From an uncultured beta proteobacterium (GTDB lineage: Bacteria; Pseudomonadota; Gammaproteobacteria; Burkholderiales; Burkholderiaceae_C), in assembly GCA_903861575.1 (NCBI GenBank), contig CAIOUR010000159.1, positions 1-42,201 of the forward strand: a DNA stretch of 42,201 nt. The letters run 5' to 3'. Made by a program: the position numbers and the translations under genes. Positions 9,616-28,178 of this stretch are shown piece by piece. Numbering within the stretch: position 1 is the first letter of the stretch; every line of letters begins with the position of its first letter. The notes under the pieces were generated by a model. That model worked only from the letters and a program-made list of their open reading frames with translations, searched no databases and had not been told where the DNA came from.

Positions 9616-10830
9616 TCATACTGGCTGAACTGCTTTGCTGGCGGCAAGCAGTTGCGCAGCTGAATCCATACCGCGGGAGGCGCGCGGCCACCACTGTGAA
9701 AACGCGTCGCAGCGCCGTTCAACGACTGGAAACAGCGCAGGCGCAGCCTCACATGTCGCGAAGCCTGCGAGCCATGGGCTCAAATGGGGCTCGTCCACGC
9801 TGCTCACCGACCGCGCACCTCTCAGCGCAGTCGCCATAGCGGCAGCATCACCCTGCCAACGCAGCGTTACCATCTCTGCCATACGGCTAAGAACAAACGT
9901 CCACCGGCGCTCGCTCCAGGGCCAAACTTGGTGGAATTCGTTGAGCAAGACGCCCACAACCGCCGCGTCGGCGGGCAAATACGCGGGCAACTCCCCCAAA
10001 TTCCAAGGGTGCACCAACCAAACATCCCGGCCAGCAACAGCCAGACCATCGGGAGCCGTCCAACCAAATTTTGAGGGCGGTTCCTTCAAAACAGGCGGCT
10101 CAGTGCGTGGGGGCTCCGCATATGGCGCTTGGACCCCTTGGTGCTCACAAACCGTCGGATTTCGAGCAAGCTGGTCCAAGGCTTCGTAAGACTGGTCGAT
10201 GACACTGCCCTTGCTGTGCCATTCCGCGGGCGCGAACCGGGCGACGTTGTCCGCATTGAAAAGATAGGGTTTACGGCTGCCGGTACCGGCCACCCATTGC
10301 CAACTCAGGTGGTTGCTGGCGAGGTCACCGTCCAGCAAGTGGCCATAGAGCCAGTCCGCACCCACCCGCCAGTGCACCTTTCGCACATGTACGACATAGC
10401 TGGCCAGCCACATCCGGGCGTGGTTGTGCAGGTAGCCGGTGGCATACAAAGCACGAACCGCCATGTCGATGACCGGAACACCTGTTACGGCTCCCCGAAT
10501 GTCAGCAGGGAGTTGTTTCGCGTAAAACGCTTGCGGCAAGGGACCATCATGCAAGGACTCCAAAATTCCCGCACTGCGATGCTGCCAGACATGGCGAAAG
10601 TACGCCCGCCAGCCCAGTTCAAAGACCCACTTGTGCTGCACCCCCAGCGAATGCAGATCGTTCACCGCGGCGAGCACCTCAGGCGCGCTGATGAGACCAT
10701 GCGTGATGTATGGGGATAGTCGGCTTACGGATCCCTGCAACGCATTACGACTGCGCGCGTAGTCATGCGGGCGGACTGCCGCCGCACGCGCAAAAGCAGC
10801 TTCACGGGTAGGGGGAAATATGTCAGCCAT
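9616..10830 (-). CDS. Photolyase/cryptochrome-like flavoprotein with FAD domain first and a C-terminal alpha/beta extension
   Basis: 404 residues from ATG 10830, with AGGGA 7 nt upstream; the track's GTG at 10857 is less likely. Residues 1-~230 form the helical FAD-binding domain of DNA photolyases: RLSPYITHG (~38), TGVPVIDMAVRALYATGYLHNHARMWLASYVVH (split motif, ~116-148) and DGDLASNHLSWQW-VAGTG (~167-184). The Asn four residues before the WQW tryptophan, equivalent to the flavin-N5 Asn of E. coli PhrB, is kept (N173), but the usual NGG is HLS. The normal N-terminal antenna domain is missing. Instead residues ~250-404 (DVWLVHPWNLGE, AAVVGVLLNEFH) look like a Rossmann/antenna domain placed at the end. 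Light-driven repair or signalling is likely. It is divergent from the MerR operon and shares its control region. Confidence 0.85.
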   Translation of the reverse strand: MADIFPPTREAAFARAAAVRPHDYARSRNALQGSVSRLSPYITHGLISAPEVLAAVNDLHSLGVQHKWVFELGWRAYFRHVWQHRSAGILESLHDGPLPQAFYAKQLPADIRGAVTGVPVIDMAVRALYATGYLHNHARMWLASYVVHVRKVHWRVGADWLYGHLLDGDLASNHLSWQWVAGTGSRKPYLFNADNVARFAPAEWHSKGSVIDQSYEALDQLARNPTVCEHQGVQAPYAEPPRTEPPVLKEPPSKFGWTAPDGLAVAGRDVWLVHPWNLGELPAYLPADAAVVGVLLNEFHQVWPWSERRWTFVLSRMAEMVTLRWQGDAAAMATALRGARSVSSVDEPHLSPWLAGFATCEAAPALFPVVERRCDAFSQWWPRASRGMDSAAQLLAASKAVQPV

Positions 10831-11034
10831 GCTCACGTCCCTGCTGGGTATCCGCACACACAGGCCCGAATCCGGGCCATCCGCGCGGGCTGCCCATCAG
10901 CGTCAGCAGCCTCACCGGATGGCATGCAAAGGAAAATCTGAGCCACGAAAATGTCAACAAGAAGTTTCTCATAAATTATAATTTCGGTGGTTAATTAAAA
11001 AAATCCAGTAAAAAACTATGCAAATAGGTCAAAA
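10831..11034. promoter_or_regulatory. Divergent control region between photolyase and MerR operon
   Basis: A 204-bp AT-rich gap between divergent genes. It contains a perfect 12-bp palindrome AAATTATAATTT (10973-10984) that includes TATAAT, a plausible -10 for the MerR operon, ~50 nt before its start. On the minus strand, TTGACA (rc of 10952-10957) could be a -35 for the photolyase, though no good -10 is seen 17 nt away. A MerR protein encoded next door would be expected to bind here. This is motif-level inference. Confidence 0.45.
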
Positions 11035-12030
11035 GTGAACAGAAAAACGTCGGGATACACCAATTTACACAAGATTGGGGCCGTGTCCACCCGCAGTGGC
11101 GTACCGGCACCAACGCTACGTGTCTGGGAGGCGCGGCACGGCACATTTGAGCCCACAAAGACCATGGGAAAACATCGCTTGTATTCGGACGAAGATGTCC
11201 TGAAAGCCACTCTGCTAAAGCGACTGATTGGCCAGGGACACGCCATCGGCGAGATTGGCAAACTAGGCACGCAAGCTCTGAGCGCGCTGCTCTTCGAGGC
11301 CAAAGCTGTGGAATGCAAGCCGCCCCTGCCGGATAGCGAGAGCGACGCGGTGTCAGTTGTTGTCATCGGACTGGCCCTGGCAAGCCGGATAGAGGCCAAG
11401 CGTTTCACGCTGAATTTCCAGAGCAATCTAGTGAAAGTCACGGGCGTTTTCAGTGACCTCGCCCATGCTCTAGCAGCCAAATCAGACAATCCGCCACAGG
11501 TGCTGCTGGTAAAGCTCAATTCTTTGCACGTCACGACCCAGCTTGATCTGCATGAAGCAGCGACGCACTGCGCAGCGCGGCAGGTGATTGTGCTCTACAA
11601 CTTTGCGCCGGAGAACGTGGTCGAATCGCTCAAAAGTGCTGGCGTTCTGGTACGGCGGGAGCCTATTTCTGACTCTGACTTGTCCGAGCTGATTCGATCT
11701 GCGGGCTCCAGATCAGCCGGCGTAGACACCAGTTCCTTGGCCACGCCAGAACGCGTTAAGCCTCGCCGATACAGCGAAGAGACACTTGTGATCGTAAGCA
11801 CCATGCCTTCGACAGTTGCGTGCGAATGCCCTCGCCATGTCGCAGAGATCATTTCCCAACTGGCAAGTTTTGAGCAATACAGCAAAGACTGCTTGAGCAG
11901 GTCCAAGGAGGATGCCGACCTTCACGCCTATCTCCACTCGGTTGCAGGATCAGCCCGCGTCCTATTCGAGGGCGCATTGCAAATCATCGCTGATTACGAA
12001 GGAATCGAACTGCGGCGGGAGGGCTTGTAA
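11035..12030 (+). CDS. MerR-family regulator with unusual C-terminal sensor region
   Basis: 331-residue regulator. Residues ~8-80 are a MerR winged helix: HKIGAVSTRSGVPAPTLRVWEARHG and KHRLYSDEDVLKATLLKRL. Residues ~100-220 alternate strands and helices like a flavodoxin/B12-binding fold (VSVVVIGLALASRI, PQVLLVKLNSLH, RQVIVLYNF) but lack the DxHxxG cobalamin motif. The last ~90 residues are helical with C263-E-C265-P-R-H and a later ALQIIADYEG end. This differs from CarH/LitR although the gene context is the same. GTG 11035 is preceded by AGGT; a six-codon ATG ORF (11018) ends in the same GTGA. It leads a five-gene operon of light-linked genes and probably controls it and the divergent photolyase. 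Confidence 0.85.
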   Translation: MNRKTSGYTNLHKIGAVSTRSGVPAPTLRVWEARHGTFEPTKTMGKHRLYSDEDVLKATLLKRLIGQGHAIGEIGKLGTQALSALLFEAKAVECKPPLPDSESDAVSVVVIGLALASRIEAKRFTLNFQSNLVKVTGVFSDLAHALAAKSDNPPQVLLVKLNSLHVTTQLDLHEAATHCAARQVIVLYNFAPENVVESLKSAGVLVRREPISDSDLSELIRSAGSRSAGVDTSSLATPERVKPRRYSEETLVIVSTMPSTVACECPRHVAEIISQLASFEQYSKDCLSRSKEDADLHAYLHSVAGSARVLFEGALQIIADYEGIELRREGL

Positions 12031-12032
12031 CG

Positions 12033-12404
12033 ATGCGGACGCTGAACGTCTTAGGGTCCGCATTAGTGCCCTGCTCCTACGATCCCCTGACAGGATATTT
12101 CCGAGATGGTTGCTGCAAGACGGATACGCACGACACCGGCAGCCACGTGATCTGCGCCAAAGTAACCCAGGAATTTTTGGATTTCTCCGCCACGGTGGGA
12201 AACGACTTGAGTACGCCCCGACCGGAGTACCGATTCTCTGGACTGAGCGCCGGCGACCGCTGGTGCCTGTGCGCGCGCAGGTGGCAACAGGCATGCCAGG
12301 CTGGGGTTGCACCCCCAGTCATCTTAGAAAGTACCCATGCCAGGGCACTCGATTTTGTGACGCTTGAAGCGCTGCAGGCCTGCGCATTGACTAAACCCGT
12401 TTGA
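12033..12404 (+). CDS. DUF2237 protein
   Basis: 123-residue cytosolic protein that matches DUF2237 nearly from end to end: NVLGSALVPCSYDPLTGYFRDGCC, then NDLSTPRPEYRFSGL, GDRWCLCARRW and AGVAPPVILESTH. The five conserved cysteines (PCS, GCC, VIC, CLC) suggest metal binding or redox chemistry; no function is established that I know of. It begins 2 nt after the regulator's stop, with GGGAGGG inside the regulator's end as ribosome site, so it is co-translated. DUF2237 genes are commonly found near photolyase genes, which fits here. Confidence 0.88.
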   Translation: MRTLNVLGSALVPCSYDPLTGYFRDGCCKTDTHDTGSHVICAKVTQEFLDFSATVGNDLSTPRPEYRFSGLSAGDRWCLCARRWQQACQAGVAPPVILESTHARALDFVTLEALQACALTKPV

Positions 12405-12416
12405 CCGCGAATCCGG

Positions 12417-12608
12417 ATGAGCACACCCACTTCATTTAAAGGCAATAAGCGCGCGCTACCCAGCAAACCCTGCACAGCTTGTGGCCGCGACATGACGTGG
12501 CGCAAAGCGTGGGCAAAGAATTGGGAGCAGGTTTTATATTGCTCGCAGGCTTGCCGTAGCCGTAAGACTCGTCAACCCGCAACGCCCGTCAACCCGGTGG
12601 CACCATGA
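12417..12608 (+). CDS. DUF2256 small zinc-ribbon protein
   Basis: 63-residue protein with KPCTACGRDMTWRKAWAKNW and VLYCSQACR, the whole DUF2256 signature. Two cysteine pairs (C-x2-C and C-x3-C) should bind one zinc. The family is typically encoded beside photolyase/cryptochrome genes and is thought of as an accessory; its role is not known. It lies 12 nt after DUF2237, and its stop overlaps the next start as ATGA (12605-12608), so its expression is tied to DUF3429 and the FeS photolyase. Confidence 0.88.
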   Translation: MSTPTSFKGNKRALPSKPCTACGRDMTWRKAWAKNWEQVLYCSQACRSRKTRQPATPVNPVAP

Positions 12609-13042
12609 AAACGATACGACGTCCCTTGCCGCGATCTGCCCAGGTATTGGGCTACGCGGGGCTTATTCCGTTTGTTGTATTAGCAACGGTGGCGTACGCC
12701 ATGGACGCCCCGGAGCAAGGTCTAGCCTCATTCGCTATGCGTGCTTATGCCGCAACCATCATCAGTTTCCTGGGTGCCATCCATTGGGGTCTCGCCATGC
12801 GTCAATCACAGCCCAACAGGTGGTTACTCTGGTGGGGCATTACGCCAAGCTTAGTCGCATGGGTGTCTTTGCTGGTCATGCCATTGGCTGGGTCATTCAT
12901 CCTCGCCGCAACGCTATGGCTTTGCTATTCGGTTGACAGGCGGGTTTACCCACTGTTCGGGTTGCAAGCTTGGCTTCGCATGCGACTGGTGCTGACGGCG
13001 GTTGCCAGTGTGTCCTGCCTGGTTGTCAGCGGTATCCTTTAA
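12605..13042 (+). CDS. DUF3429 membrane protein
   Basis: 145-residue inner-membrane protein with four to five hydrophobic segments. DUF3429 features are clear: VLGYAGLIPFV near the start, YAATIISFLGAIHWGLAM (~50-67) and WWGITPSLVAWVSLLV (~77-92). The histidine and tryptophan in GAIHWG sit inside a helix and are family hallmarks. Function is unknown. It starts in an ATGA overlap with DUF2256, and the photolyase GTG follows one base after its stop, which makes it the membrane member of this light-linked operon. Confidence 0.88.
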   Translation: MKTIRRPLPRSAQVLGYAGLIPFVVLATVAYAMDAPEQGLASFAMRAYAATIISFLGAIHWGLAMRQSQPNRWLLWWGITPSLVAWVSLLVMPLAGSFILAATLWLCYSVDRRVYPLFGLQAWLRMRLVLTAVASVSCLVVSGIL

Positions 13043-13043
13043 C

Positions 13044-14606
13044 GTGAAAATCGCGTTACGACATCTGGTAATCGTGCTGGGTGACCAGCTCAACGAAGAT
13101 GCCACGGCGCTAGCCGATTTCGATACGGAACAAGATGCCGTCTGGATGGCAGAGGTGGCCGAAGAATCCACCCACGTACCATCGTCCAAGCAGCGAACCA
13201 CCGTATTTTTAAGCGCAATGCGACACTTTGCGGAACGCCTGCAGCGACGGGGCATACCGCTGCAATACACCAAGCTGGACGCACCCGATAACGCCGGCAC
13301 ACTGGCGGGCGAGTTGGAGAAATGCCTATTGGGTAACCGTCCGGACAGGTTGGTTATGACTGCGCCCGGTGATTGGCGGGTGCTGAACGTAATGCGCCAA
13401 ATGGCGGCAAAACACGGGGTTACGCTGGAAGTTCGCGATGACCACCACTTTTTTTGCACCGTCAGGGACTTCGCAGCGCACGCGAAGGGACGTAAGCAAT
13501 TGCGCATGGAGTTCTTCTACCGCGAGATGCGAAAGCGTACAGGCGTTCTCATGGACGGCACGGTGCCTGTCGGCGGGCAATGGAACTTTGATACCGACAA
13601 TCGGGCTAGTTTCGGAAAAAGCGGCCCGGGATCGGTCCCTGGACCCAGCCGCTTCCAGCCGGATGCGATCACCCTGGAAGTTATCGCTCTCGTGAACCGG
13701 CGCTTTCCTCACCACCCAGGATCGGTAGACCTGTTCGGGTGGCCTGTTGACCGGGAGCAGGCATTACAAGCATTGAATGATTTCATCCGAAATAGGCTGC
13801 CGCAATTTGGGATGTACCAGGATGCCATGTGGGATGGCGAAGCGTGGCTATTTCACTCCCATATTGCGAGCGCTTTGAACTTGAAACTGCTCAACCCACG
13901 GGAAGTGGTTGCAGCGGCCGAAAGCGCATACGCCAAGTGCGACGCGCCGCTTGCCGCCGTTGAAGGGTTTATCCGACAAATTCTGGGCTGGCGGGAATAT
14001 GTGCGTGGGATCTACTGGACGCGCATGCCAAGCTATGCGCACAGCAATGCACTGAATGCCCGACAACCCCTGCCGGCGTGGTATTGGACCGGTGACACAA
14101 ACATGTCTTGCATGCGCGACGCCATCCACCAAACGCTCACGCATGGCTACGCACATCACATACAACGCCTGATGGTCACGGGCCTGTATGCCTTACTGCT
14201 AGGGGTGGAGCCGCAGCAGGTTCACCAGTGGTATCTGTCCGTGTACGTGGATGCGGTCGAGTGGGTTGAGCTGCCCAACACAGTGGGGATGAGTCAATTC
14301 GCCGACGGTGGAATCATGGCCAGCAAGCCCTACGTTGCCAGCGGTAAATATATTGACCGCATGAGCAACTATTGCAAGACCTGCCCGTTCAACCCTGCGC
14401 AGGCTACCGGCCCCACAGCATGCCCCTTCACTGCGCTGTATTGGGATTTCCTGGATCGACATTCGGAATCTCTGGCAAAGAACCCCAGGATGTTGATGCA
14501 GCTCAAAAACCTCAATAGGCTCAGCATTTCCGAGCGCGCGGCGATCTCCGCGCAAGCCCAAACGTACCGCACACCTCTGATGGCCCTTGCGGACAACCAG
14601 TGGTGA
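13044..14606 (+). CDS. FeS-type bacterial photolyase/cryptochrome (PhrB/CryB, (6-4) photolyase class)
   Basis: 520 residues from GTG 13044 (KIALRHLVIVLGDQLN), one base after DUF3429; the TTG at 13002 in the track would sit inside DUF3429. The N-terminal ~170 residues are the DPRP alpha/beta domain (GDQLNEDATALADFD). The rest is the FAD domain, with the family signatures MSQFADGG, KPYVASGKYI and ACPFTALYWDFLDRH. Four cysteines at about 356, 444, 447 and 460 have the same spacing (88, 3, 13) as the [4Fe-4S] ligands of Agrobacterium PhrB and Rhodobacter CryB, so the cluster should be present. Known members repair (6-4) photoproducts or act as light sensors and bind a lumazine antenna. Last gene of the operon; convergent with the TPR gene 4 nt away. 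Confidence 0.93.
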   Translation: MKIALRHLVIVLGDQLNEDATALADFDTEQDAVWMAEVAEESTHVPSSKQRTTVFLSAMRHFAERLQRRGIPLQYTKLDAPDNAGTLAGELEKCLLGNRPDRLVMTAPGDWRVLNVMRQMAAKHGVTLEVRDDHHFFCTVRDFAAHAKGRKQLRMEFFYREMRKRTGVLMDGTVPVGGQWNFDTDNRASFGKSGPGSVPGPSRFQPDAITLEVIALVNRRFPHHPGSVDLFGWPVDREQALQALNDFIRNRLPQFGMYQDAMWDGEAWLFHSHIASALNLKLLNPREVVAAAESAYAKCDAPLAAVEGFIRQILGWREYVRGIYWTRMPSYAHSNALNARQPLPAWYWTGDTNMSCMRDAIHQTLTHGYAHHIQRLMVTGLYALLLGVEPQQVHQWYLSVYVDAVEWVELPNTVGMSQFADGGIMASKPYVASGKYIDRMSNYCKTCPFNPAQATGPTACPFTALYWDFLDRHSESLAKNPRMLMQLKNLNRLSISERAAISAQAQTYRTPLMALADNQW

Positions 14607-16150: not shown

Positions 16151-17746
16151 TCAGGCCATTTCCCGCTCTTGCACAACCGTGGAATTGGTGACAGGTGTAC
16201 GAATCAAGTAGTCGAAAGCACTGAGCGCCGCTTTCGCGCCCTCTCCGGCTGCAATCACTATCTGCTTGAAAGGGACTGTGGTCACGTCGCCCGCGGCAAA
16301 TACGCCCGCCACATTGGTCTGGCATTTGGCATCCACCACAATTTCTCCATACCTGCTCAGCTCAATGCTTCCTTTAAGAAACTCGGTGTTGGGAATAAGT
16401 CCAATTTGAACGAATACGCCTTCCAGCGCCACGTCCTGCAAAAGACCCGTGACTCGGTCTTTATAACGCAACCCATTCACCTTCTGTCCATCACCGGTGA
16501 TTTCGGTTGTCTGCGCGTTCACATGGACGCTCACGTTGGGCAAGCTTCTGAGCTTGCTTACCAGGACTGCATCGGCTTTGAGAGCGTCTGCGAATTCAAC
16601 CAAAGTCACGTGCTGCACCAGCCCGGCCAAATCGATAGCTGCCTCGACGCCGGAATTGCCACCCCCGATTACCGCCACACGCTTACCCTTAAACAGCGGG
16701 CCGTCGCAGTGCGGGCAATAAGCAACGCCTTTATTTTTGTAGAGCTCTTCGCCGGGAACGTTGACATTGCGCCAGCGTGCACCGGTAGACAGAACCACAC
16801 TGCGCGCACGCAAAACACCCCCGTTTTCCATGTGCACCTGCAAGAGGCCACCTGGCTCAGTTGCTGGAACAATTTTTTCCGCACGCTGCAGGTTCATGAT
16901 GTCGACCTCATAGTGCCGGACCTGACTTTCCAACGCAGCGGCAAACTTGGGACCATCCGTTTCCAAAACTGAAATGTAATTCTCGATGGCCATCGTATCG
17001 TTGGTTTGGCCACCAAAACGCTCTGCGGCCAGGCCGACACGAATGCCCTTTCTCGCCGCGTACACCGCAGCCGCCGCACCCGCGGGTCCGCCGCCGACAA
17101 TCAACATGTCGAATGGATCTTTCTCGCTCAACTTTTGGGCCTCGCGCCCCTCAGAACCCACATCGAGGCGCGCTAGCATTTCTTCCAGGCTCATGCGCCC
17201 AGCACCGAAAACCTGGTCGTTTAAATAGACCATAGGCACGGCCATCACTTGGCGCGCATCGACTTCCGCCTGGTTCAAACCGCCGTCTATGACGGTTGTA
17301 TCGATGAGCGGGTTGTAAATCGCCATCAAAGTCGCCGCCTGCACAACGTCGGGGCAGTTGTGGCAAGACAAGGACATGTACACCTCGAGCTTCAGCGTGG
17401 CGTCAAGCCCTTTGATCTGCTCAAGTACCTCTGGCTCCACTTTAGGCGGATGACCACCCGTCCAAAGCAAGGCCAAAACCAACGACGTAAATTCGTGACC
17501 CAAGGGAATAGCTGCGAAACGCACACCACGCGATTCCCCTGCCTTGGCAACCACAAATGATGGGCAGCGCAGATCCGAGCCCGACTCATCGACGCTGACT
17601 TTTTCGGACAGTTCAGCGATTTCTTGCAACAGTTCACGCAACTCCGCACTCTTATCGCTAGCGTCCAAGGTGGCAATCAAGCGTATAGGGGTCCGCAAGT
17701 TTTGCAAATAGGCTTGCAGTTGGGTTTTCATGGCGGCGTCAAGCAT
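16151..17746 (-). CDS. ahpF: Alkyl hydroperoxide reductase subunit F
   Basis: NADH-dependent flavoprotein that reduces AhpC. 531 residues from ATG 17746 ([15 protein letters not shown], ribosome site AGGAAA); the 38 extra track residues have no support. Order: N-terminal double-thioredoxin domain with LSCHNCPD (redox CxxC at ~128), FAD domain with [17 protein letters not shown], then the NADH/thioredoxin-reductase part with [12 protein letters not shown] (catalytic CxxC) and [15 protein letters not shown], ending [16 protein letters not shown]. Very close to enterobacterial AhpF throughout. Encoded 100 nt after ahpC on the same strand. Confidence 0.97.
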
Positions 17747-17846
17747 GTAATTTCCTATGAGTTCCAGTGATTCGGGTAGGGCCAGCTTGCCTTTTGGGCG
17801 CTGAAGGGGTGCGGCAGACGCACCCCATTTTCCGCATGTTCCCGCG

Positions 17847-18410
17847 TTAGATCTTGCCAACCAGATCCAGCGAAGGCGTCAGGGTCTTCGCGCCTTCATT
17901 CCACTTAGCCGGACAAACTTGTCCTGGGTTCTTGGCGACATATTGGGCAGCTTTGAGCTTGCGAACCGTTTCCTTCACATCGCGAGCAATGGCGTTGTCA
18001 TGCACTTCGGCAGTCTTGATGACGCACTCGGGGTTGATGATGAAGGTACCGCGCAAGGCCAGGCCTTCTTCCTCAATGTGCACACCAAAAGCGCGGGTCA
18101 ACTGGTGCGTGGGATCACCGACCAGGGGGAATTTGGCTTTACCGACCGCGGGCGAGGTTTCATGCCACACCTTGTGGGCGAAATGGGTGTCGGTGGTGAC
18201 GATGTAGACCTCGGCGCCGGCCTTCTGGAACTCAGCGTAGTTGTCAGCCGCGTCTTCCACCTCGGTTGGGCAATTGAAGGTGAATGCCGCTGGCATGAAA
18301 ATCAGAACGGACCACTGGCCTTTGAGTGTTTCGCTAGAAACTTCAACGAATTTGCCGTTATGAAACGCCTGGGCCTTGAAAGGCTGCACATGTGTGTTGA
18401 TGAGGGACAT
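17847..18410 (-). CDS. ahpC: Alkyl hydroperoxide reductase subunit C (2-Cys peroxiredoxin)
   Basis: 187-residue typical 2-Cys peroxiredoxin that reduces H2O2 and organic hydroperoxides. ATG 18410 with AGGAT at good spacing; the 19 residues before it in the track are not needed. The peroxidatic site is [11 protein letters not shown] (P-x3-T-x2-C, Cys ~47) and the resolving Cys is in [10 protein letters not shown] near 166. The end [10 protein letters not shown] is the normal AhpC C-terminus. It is first in an ahpC-ahpF pair. No oxyR is next to it, and I find no clear OxyR box. Confidence 0.97.
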
Positions 18411-18778
18411 AAGTAAATCCTTTGTTCGGTTGATGAAAGCTATTGAATGGGCAGACCCCATTGGCAAGCATCATAATCAACGCCAGGGTTAACCCCCATC
18501 ACTTAAACAAATGACGAACATTGAGGAAATCTAAAGCCGCCCCAGGTGCGGCGCTTTGTTGACTCGAGTGGCTCACCCACATTAAGCCCACTTTTTGTGT
18601 TGGCGATGCCGGTCAAAGACTCTGATGCCCAAGGGAGTCAACCAACAAGTCGGCATTTCATCTGCCCCTCGTTTTGGGGGAATTTGGCGCGGTAGCGCGT
18701 CATGTATCAGTACGAGAAAACCGTTTCATCCTAGCTTTGGCGCGTGGTTCGGGCGCCAACAGCGATGGCCTCATGCCA
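18411..18778. other. Intergenic region upstream of ahpC
   Basis: 368 bases without a recognisable gene between ahpC and mgtC (both minus strand). It should contain the ahpC promoter; TATGAT is seen on the minus strand upstream, close to a perfect palindrome GGGTTAACCC (18486-18495), but no good -35. A GCCGC...GCGGC hairpin lies near 18535-18555. The plus-strand ORF at 18595-18894 has no family resemblance and overlaps the end of mgtC, so I do not call it. Confidence 0.5.
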
Positions 18779-27119: not shown

Positions 27120-27965
27120 TTATGCCTTAGGGAGCGTCGCAACGGCCAGCGCCACGGCCTCCTTAGCATCTGTGCAGATGCCATCAGCACCAAACGCGGT
27201 CGCTTCAAAATCGCGCAGGGTAAAAATAGGCCCCCCCAACAATACGGATACGCGTGGGTTGCGGGAACGCTGTCGGATTTGCGCAACCAACGCATCAAGG
27301 CCACTCAGCTGCTGATTGATGCTGACCGATAAGCCCACCGTATCAAACCATTCACTGGCCACCGCGTGCGCTAACTCATTTGCGCTGGGCGATATCTCGA
27401 CTACGACCTGCCAACCCCCTCGACGGAAAAATTCCGCAACGATCGTCGGGCCAAGTAAATGCTCAGAACCAGGCGCGGAAGCAATCATCGCGCGCTTGAC
27501 CTCGCCCTGAATACGTGGACCTTGTTCGTAGGCAAAGCCAATTGCATGCGTAATGGTATGGAGTTGCACCAATCCGTGTGTGACCTGCGTGAAATCTAAG
27601 GTGTCGTCCTCCCACCGGGCACCGAGAGCCCGCGCCGTCGGCGTGATGAGCTCTAAAAAAATATGCTCCGTATTGAGGCCATCACGGAGCAATCGGTCCA
27701 CAAAGGCCTGCGCCACCTGGGGTTCCTGACCGATACACAGCTCTAAAAAGGCTGCAATCTCCTGCGGCGTTGGCATGGAACGCGTAGACGGCACCAAACT
27801 CAAATGGCTTCTGTCCATCCGCTGCGCTTGCAAAAGTCGGGGAACAATTTCGGACTCGATGACGGCGAGGAGCGAGGCTTGGCAATCTGCCGGAGTGCCT
27901 TCGAAATTTTCGGGAAAATTTTCGTTCGATGCGGCGGACGCCTTCGAAAACATCGACATGGCCAT
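27120..27965 (-). CDS. Cobalamin-binding regulator, AerR/PpaA-like
   Basis: About 281 residues from ATG 27965 (MAMSMFSKAS); ATGs at 27959 and 27953 are equally possible and the track's longer start is doubtful. Residues ~60-160 are helical with LGARWEDDTLDFTQVTHGLVQLH, the segment before the B12 fold in AerR/PpaA proteins. ASAPGSEHLLGPTIVAEFFRRGGWQV (~175-200) matches the GxxHxLG cobalamin motif with a candidate axial His. VSVLLGGPIF and GADGICTDAKEAV close the Rossmann fold. AerR/PpaA proteins are light/B12-responsive antirepressors of photosynthesis genes. No partner repressor or photosynthesis gene is visible here, so the target is unknown. Confidence 0.8.
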   Translation of the reverse strand: MAMSMFSKASAASNENFPENFEGTPADCQASLLAVIESEIVPRLLQAQRMDRSHLSLVPSTRSMPTPQEIAAFLELCIGQEPQVAQAFVDRLLRDGLNTEHIFLELITPTARALGARWEDDTLDFTQVTHGLVQLHTITHAIGFAYEQGPRIQGEVKRAMIASAPGSEHLLGPTIVAEFFRRGGWQVVVEISPSANELAHAVASEWFDTVGLSVSINQQLSGLDALVAQIRQRSRNPRVSVLLGGPIFTLRDFEATAFGADGICTDAKEAVALAVATLPKA

Positions 27966-28178
27966 CCAGGTCAATTCGGCCAACGGTGCGGCCAGCCTCG
28001 TGATACCGGGAAATACCGCCGCCTTGATCATAGGAATGCCCATCATGGGATACACCAAAGGCAGGATAGCCCTCTGCTGCGCAATCTAACAAACTCCCTG
28101 CTTTATGGCAATTACTTGCGATCAGGGTATTCCCGCAGGCCCTGACTGTTTACCCGGCAAGTGCGATACGCTCTGCCG

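Follow-up and report, generated by a model that had tools for sequence, protein, structure and literature searches.

The gene at 11035–12030 (+) of the window, by which we mean the whole analysed stretch of 42,201 nucleotides from an uncultured beta proteobacterium, encodes a MerR-family regulator that is real and well conserved and that is best filed, as a candidate member, with the known B12-independent LitR proteins of the class III type. The gene begins with a GTG start codon, codes for 331 aa and is the first of a same-strand string extending from 11035 to 14606. In the mechanistic reading that we favour, and to which we assign a probability of roughly 60%, the product would be a B12-independent class III LitR-type repressor with photo-damage genes as its targets and a C-terminal Cys/His domain as its sensor. 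The analysis established the domain anatomy of the protein, the invariance of its Cys/His residues, the dispensability of its middle domain, the repair-gene context and, in relatives, direct repeats with the spacing known from CarH.

The MerR winged-helix DNA-binding domain spans residues 13–77 (11071–11265, +; PF13411, E 8.6e-12; 48 bits in the search of the genome itself) and is the only Pfam match in the 331-aa protein. The NCBIfam model for CarH was matched solely by residues 12–69, i.e. by the helix-turn-helix (HTH) part, with 34 bits versus a cut-off of 400. The absence of the B12 motif DxHxxG, on which the first-pass annotation had based its proposal, could be confirmed for the 331-aa protein and extended to 31 relatives. 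The Wx9EH motif of CarH is missing from the protein as well, since its only tryptophan is W31, which lies within the HTH. For an alignment of 30 family sequences, searched at E values up to 10, no B12-binding Pfam model appeared among the matches listed (25 of 32 families); the helical B12-binding_2 domain (PF02607) was found neither among these listed matches nor in the 331-aa protein. In the AlphaFold model the four-helix cap is likewise absent, helix 79–91 running straight into strand 106–111.

With a pLDDT of 60, the full-length AlphaFold model, for which three sequences were used, is weak; only the separate model of the C-terminal domain was relied on with confidence. The structural comparison with CarH, which had been suggested at the first pass, gave a divided result: in a Foldseek search with the full-length model CarH chains ranked first, via the HTH and the alpha/beta domain, but the whole-chain TM-scores reached only 0.22–0.25. 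The first pass had also described an alternating alpha/beta pattern after the winged helix, and the model indeed predicts strands and helices for residues 106–225, at modest confidence (block pLDDT about 49–76). AlphaFold, Foldseek and profile searches together delineate an alpha/beta, flavodoxin-like middle domain of residues about 105–225 (11347–11709, +). Compared on its own with known structures, this domain came closer to the Spo0A receiver (TMt 0.73) and the CpaE pseudo-receiver (0.68) than to the corrinoid protein 1y80 (0.47), and a profile search gave a weak pointer to receivers, so that the predicted domain looks receiver-like rather than cobalamin-binding. Cobalamin binding was rejected, given the missing motif, the missing Pfam match and a middle-domain structure that fits receivers better. 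A true CarH holding cobalamin through a diverged site would have the Foldseek ranking on its side; against the low TM-scores, the receiver-like middle region and the lack of DxHxxG, Wx9EH, four-helix cap and B12 Pfam match we regard it as highly improbable. The protein resembles CarH and the other class I LitR proteins (Thermus, Bacillus, Myxococcus) in its HTH and in the flavodoxin-like domain that follows it, and relatives of its gene resemble them in having 11-bp direct-repeat operators; it differs by having neither B12 motif nor four-helix cap, by an extra C-terminal Cys/His domain and by a gene neighbourhood in which no carotenoid genes were identified.

The middle domain is dispensable in some members of the family. 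Four short relatives of 191–218 aa (L040–L043) consist of the HTH and the C-terminal domain only, and their genes still adjoin DUF2256, cryB and photolyase-like genes. In the window protein this part may be a degenerate receiver or Rossmann-like module that would serve at most for oligomerisation. As a separate observation, the Burkholderia light cluster holds a detached relative of the middle domain (L037, 5015–5770, and L036, 5224–5769) for which there was no Pfam match.

The first-pass annotation had further described a helical C-terminal domain with a C-E-C-P-R-H motif. Modelled alone (three sequences), this region indeed yielded three helices with a pLDDT of 87 and a pTM of 0.79, and the numbering of C263, C265 and H268 proved right. 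The three-helix Cys/His domain, a candidate sensor delimited by the AlphaFold model, conservation and stand-alone homologues, comprises residues about 240–325 (11752–12009, +), and the motif occupies residues 263–268 (11821–11838, +). C263, C265, H268, C286, H297 and E312 are the same in every one of the 67 distinct MerR-linked domains, a conservation far above chance. Cys286 (11890–11892, +) and His297 (11923–11925, +), both overlooked at the first pass, are more strictly conserved than H268: together with C263, C265 and E312 they have invariant equivalents in all seven stand-alone homologues, and in a later class-wide sample the three cysteines and H297 were kept, and two members had Q at the position of H268. 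One sequence of the class-wide set (L138) gave an interrupted match, and another (L139) is a homologue without HTH that retains the middle domain and has lost all three C-terminal cysteines. The stand-alone domains combine Q268 with C314; a strict compensation between H268 and Cys314 as metal ligands was dropped, because the two MerR members with Q268 do not contain C314.

No PDB structure matched the C-terminal domain better than E 0.56, and a profile search against PDB sequences returned nothing convincing. In the AlphaFold monomer, helix 2 is formed by residues 266–286 and separates the CxCP motif, at one end, from C286 at the other; its length suggests a distance of about 30 Å between C263/C265 and C286, which implies either two sites or ligands that meet across a dimer. 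The domain had been regarded as an addition to a CarH; its presence is borne out, but the notion of an addition is not, as the domain occurs in the short forms and also alone. Because natural short forms do without the middle domain, the sensor probably resides in the Cys/His domain, the best candidate for this role. Sensing by a metal, an FeS cluster or redox thiols would be plausible.

Proteins consisting of the domain alone (about 105 aa; L074–L080, L115, L116, L140) carry CxCPxQ and the equivalents of C286, H297, E312 and E322, and several of their genes lie near lipocalin, desulfurase, BLUF or photolyase genes. Two of them are close to lipocalin genes, one of which (L116) is also near BLUF, photolyase and RudS-type genes; another (L075) adjoins a pyrimidine-dimer glycosylase/DUF1722 gene and a 2-thiouracil desulfurase gene. 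RudS genes are reported to be frequent in light-responsive operons (PMC11417400). The link between the stand-alone domain and light genes is not universal, since one copy (L114) lies between gat genes.

B12-independent relatives of LitR and CarH are already known, namely class II with a LOV partner and class III in Burkholderia (PMC9758184, PMC6739363), so that a B12-free regulator is not unprecedented. The same papers describe the class III LitR of Burkholderia multivorans as B12-independent, the absorbance of the recombinant protein as light-dependent, its chromophore as other than B12 and its sensing mechanism as novel. The window protein shares with class III the MerR HTH, the betaproteobacterial origin and, as far as its sequence predicts, B12 independence; its C-terminal region is devoid of a known domain and of a B12 motif or domain, and photolyase-type genes adjoin its gene. 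The likeness was drawn via B. anthina and B. arboris and not via the B. multivorans sequence, and the relatives in these two species are only about 33% identical to the window protein, with all Cys/His positions in common and the same CECPRH...C...H pattern in the Burkholderia domain. The Burkholderia anthina/arboris relative lies in a cluster of sigma factor, folE, cfa and photolyase genes; in B. anthina a sigma-70 factor, folE, cyclopropane-fatty-acid synthase (cfa), DUF3429 and photolyase genes are found alongside it. The window cluster, in contrast, holds DUF2237, DUF2256, DUF3429 and cryB genes and has no adjacent sigma factor or folE. For class III LitR, Sumi et al. in 2018 reportedly found that the genes surrounding litR, namely folE2, cfaB, litS and photolyase genes, are induced by light, and reportedly saw absorption in the UV-A.

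In the window the MerR gene is followed on the same strand by a DUF2237 gene (12033–12404, +; Pfam E 9.5e-54), which starts 2 bp past its stop codon and also occurs near the MerR gene in two relatives (L046, L047), by genes for a small DUF2256 protein (12444–12602, +; E 1.9e-18) and a DUF3429 protein (12605–13042, +; E 1.2e-30), and by a gene for a cryB-like deoxyribodipyrimidine photolyase-related protein (DPRP; 13002–14606, +; E 1.5e-77) that is a recurrent neighbour of this family of regulators. With respect to the gene spacing and the shared strand, the MerR gene likely heads an operon of photo-damage functions. On the other side lies a divergent gene for a photolyase-like protein with a FAD_binding_7 match near its N-terminus (9616–10857, −; Pfam E 1.2e-25), which is a conserved neighbour in L040–L043 and L049; its homologues show 52–62% identity beside the short-form MerR genes and 65% in L049. 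The FAD-binding match of this protein covers residues 77–209 only and the N-terminal photolyase domain is missing; a photolyase domain in rearranged form might make up its C-terminal half. At 27123–28058 (−), 15 kb from the MerR gene, the window also encodes a protein of 312 aa that contains a B12-binding domain and matches AppA_SCHIC and B12-binding_2 weakly; it resembles cobalamin regulators of the PpaA/AerR type and has no HTH match.

The regulator is not an orphan; it has relatives in many Burkholderiales and in about 20 further gammaproteobacterial families. Searches of 201 genomes of the window's family revealed full-length or short relatives in about 40; in the family that includes Burkholderia they were found in 39 of 200 genomes, and in a class-wide sample in 24 of 369 genomes from about 20 families. 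Named carriers are Burkholderia anthina, B. arboris, Caballeronia, Methylomagnum, an uncultured Burkholderiales bacterium and a Hahella MAG. Photolyase, cryB, DUF2256, folE or SDR genes lie near most of the 22 relatives whose surroundings were labelled; around four relatives (L039, L055, L057, L058) the stretch searched contained no light-related neighbour.

Possible operators were analysed by counting, in the upstream regions of 63 non-redundant family genes, exact 6-mer direct repeats at all spacings between 6 and 33 bp. A spacing of 11 bp stood out with 22 of the 63 genes, whereas 200 dinucleotide shuffles averaged 5.0 genes and never exceeded 12; no gene showed repeats at 10 bp, and some other spacings, 9 and 27 bp among them, showed a weaker excess. 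The half-sites of the 11-bp repeats contain TCA, often directly 3' of a TAAT element, and the short forms are included. CarH operators are 11-bp direct repeats (PMC8156234, PMC9304148). The divergent promoter region of the window itself (10858–11034) was scanned for the family-type 11-bp repeat and yielded no clear copy. The class II LitR proteins (PplR/PmlR) are B12-independent MerR repressors of photolyase and folE genes (PMC9758184), as the window protein would be, but differ by retaining a B12-binding_2 domain and by binding TGTACA-N12-TGTACA. The TGTACA operator was rejected for lack of enrichment upstream of the family, with one occurrence versus 4.3 expected.

A further difference from class II concerns its short LOV partner. 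In pattern searches the LOV motif was absent from the window's genome and from all 39 Burkholderiaceae carriers, and a LOV partner was consequently rejected. The first pass had considered a partner protein as the sensor, and this idea survives in part: BLUF is not needed family-wide, and the window's genome does carry one BLUF gene. According to such a mechanism the MerR protein would be blind, a BLUF flavoprotein would act as a light-dependent antirepressor that removes it from DNA, and the Cys/His domain would provide a docking surface or bind a metal for structural reasons. Precedents exist in BluF-BluR (PMC3509220) and in PmSB-LOV-PmlR2 (PMC9758184). In the window's family BLUF was found in 41 of 41 carriers of the MerR gene versus 33 of 37 non-carriers (Fisher p 0.046), a co-occurrence that says little because BLUF is near-ubiquitous in this family and may just be a member of the regulon. 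In five of the 41 carriers (G020, G082, G038, G119, G051) BLUF and the MerR gene are no more than about 5 kb apart, versus about 0.25 expected by a hand estimate that takes some two BLUF genes for a genome of 4 Mb; in G020 one strand carries MerR, folE and BLUF in that order. The window's MerR gene has no BLUF gene next to it; the sole BLUF gene of its genome adjoins folE on another, short contig (C186; L109, 172–1298), possibly a second locus of the same light regulon. The stand-alone domain gene L116, which is accompanied by photolyase and RudS genes, lies about 2 kb from a BLUF gene. However, 31 of the 39 Burkholderiaceae carriers are without BLUF, and BLUF is thus no family-wide requirement; it either belongs to the same regulon or acts as a partner in particular lineages. 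In E. coli the partner-driven BluR (BluR/MlrA), on which BluF acts as light-dependent antirepressor, is a MerR-like repressor of light-responsive genes, as the window protein would be, and BLUF is sometimes adjacent in the window's family; the C-terminal domain of BluR, however, is free of cysteine (PMC3509220), whereas the cysteines of the regulators described here are invariant. On balance we consider a BLUF antirepressor unlikely.

An alternative is a redox or metal-stress regulator with an indirect response to light, in which light-generated singlet oxygen or peroxide would oxidise the Cys/His site or strip it of its metal or cluster; it overlaps with the indirect branch of the favoured explanation. 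The invariant CxC, Cys and His residues, the lack of a known chromophore-binding domain and the peroxiredoxin and flavoprotein disulphide reductase genes at 16154–18467 of the window are consistent with this view, as is the photo-oxidative response of V. cholerae, which uses a MerR protein together with ChrR (PMC5241685). The recurrent neighbours, however, are mainly photorepair and pterin genes and not oxidant-defence genes, and the light-dependent absorbance described for the B. multivorans class III protein (PMC9758184) also argues against it, so that we hold a purely indirect response to be possible but doubtful.

Returning to the class III LitR-type repressor, we infer repression, light as the signal and a cofactor at the Cys/His set. 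In the dark the protein would occupy and block the promoters of the string that it heads and of further photo-damage genes, the targets being the cryB-like photolyase, DUF2237, DUF2256, DUF3429 and probably folE. Either light itself or a product arising directly from photo-oxidative stress would then change the C-terminal three-helix domain, which may hold a cofactor or reactive thiols via C263-x-C265, C286 and H297, with H268 as accessory residue. The repressor thus changed would lose its DNA-binding arrangement, and the repair genes would be expressed. Several observations speak against this reading: the distance between C263/C265 and C286 in the monomer model, the promoter of the window without a clear 11-bp repeat, the presence of BLUF in all 41 carriers of the window's family and its proximity to the MerR gene in five of them, the relatives that have no light-related neighbour, and the stand-alone copy between gat genes.

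The invariance of the Cys/His residues, the stand-alone domain, the short forms, the receiver-like appearance of the predicted middle domain, the 11-bp repeats and the dispensability of BLUF and LOV are new here. The chromophore search for class III LitR is thereby narrowed to a single domain of 85 residues and, within it, to four to five positions, and the stand-alone versions named above have a size suited to spectroscopy and structural studies. With a cofactor, the domain would be a new photosensor or photo-oxidative sensor; without one, the BLUF link gains weight. More speculative, and in our estimate rather improbable, is an autonomous light-sensing module that binds a photolabile metal, iron-sulphur or pterin cofactor. 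Should this be true, the family would possess a type of photoreceptor outside the flavin, tetrapyrrole, retinal, coumarate, carotenoid and B12 classes, used by many proteobacteria in fusion with a MerR HTH and also as a stand-alone protein encoded near light-damage genes.
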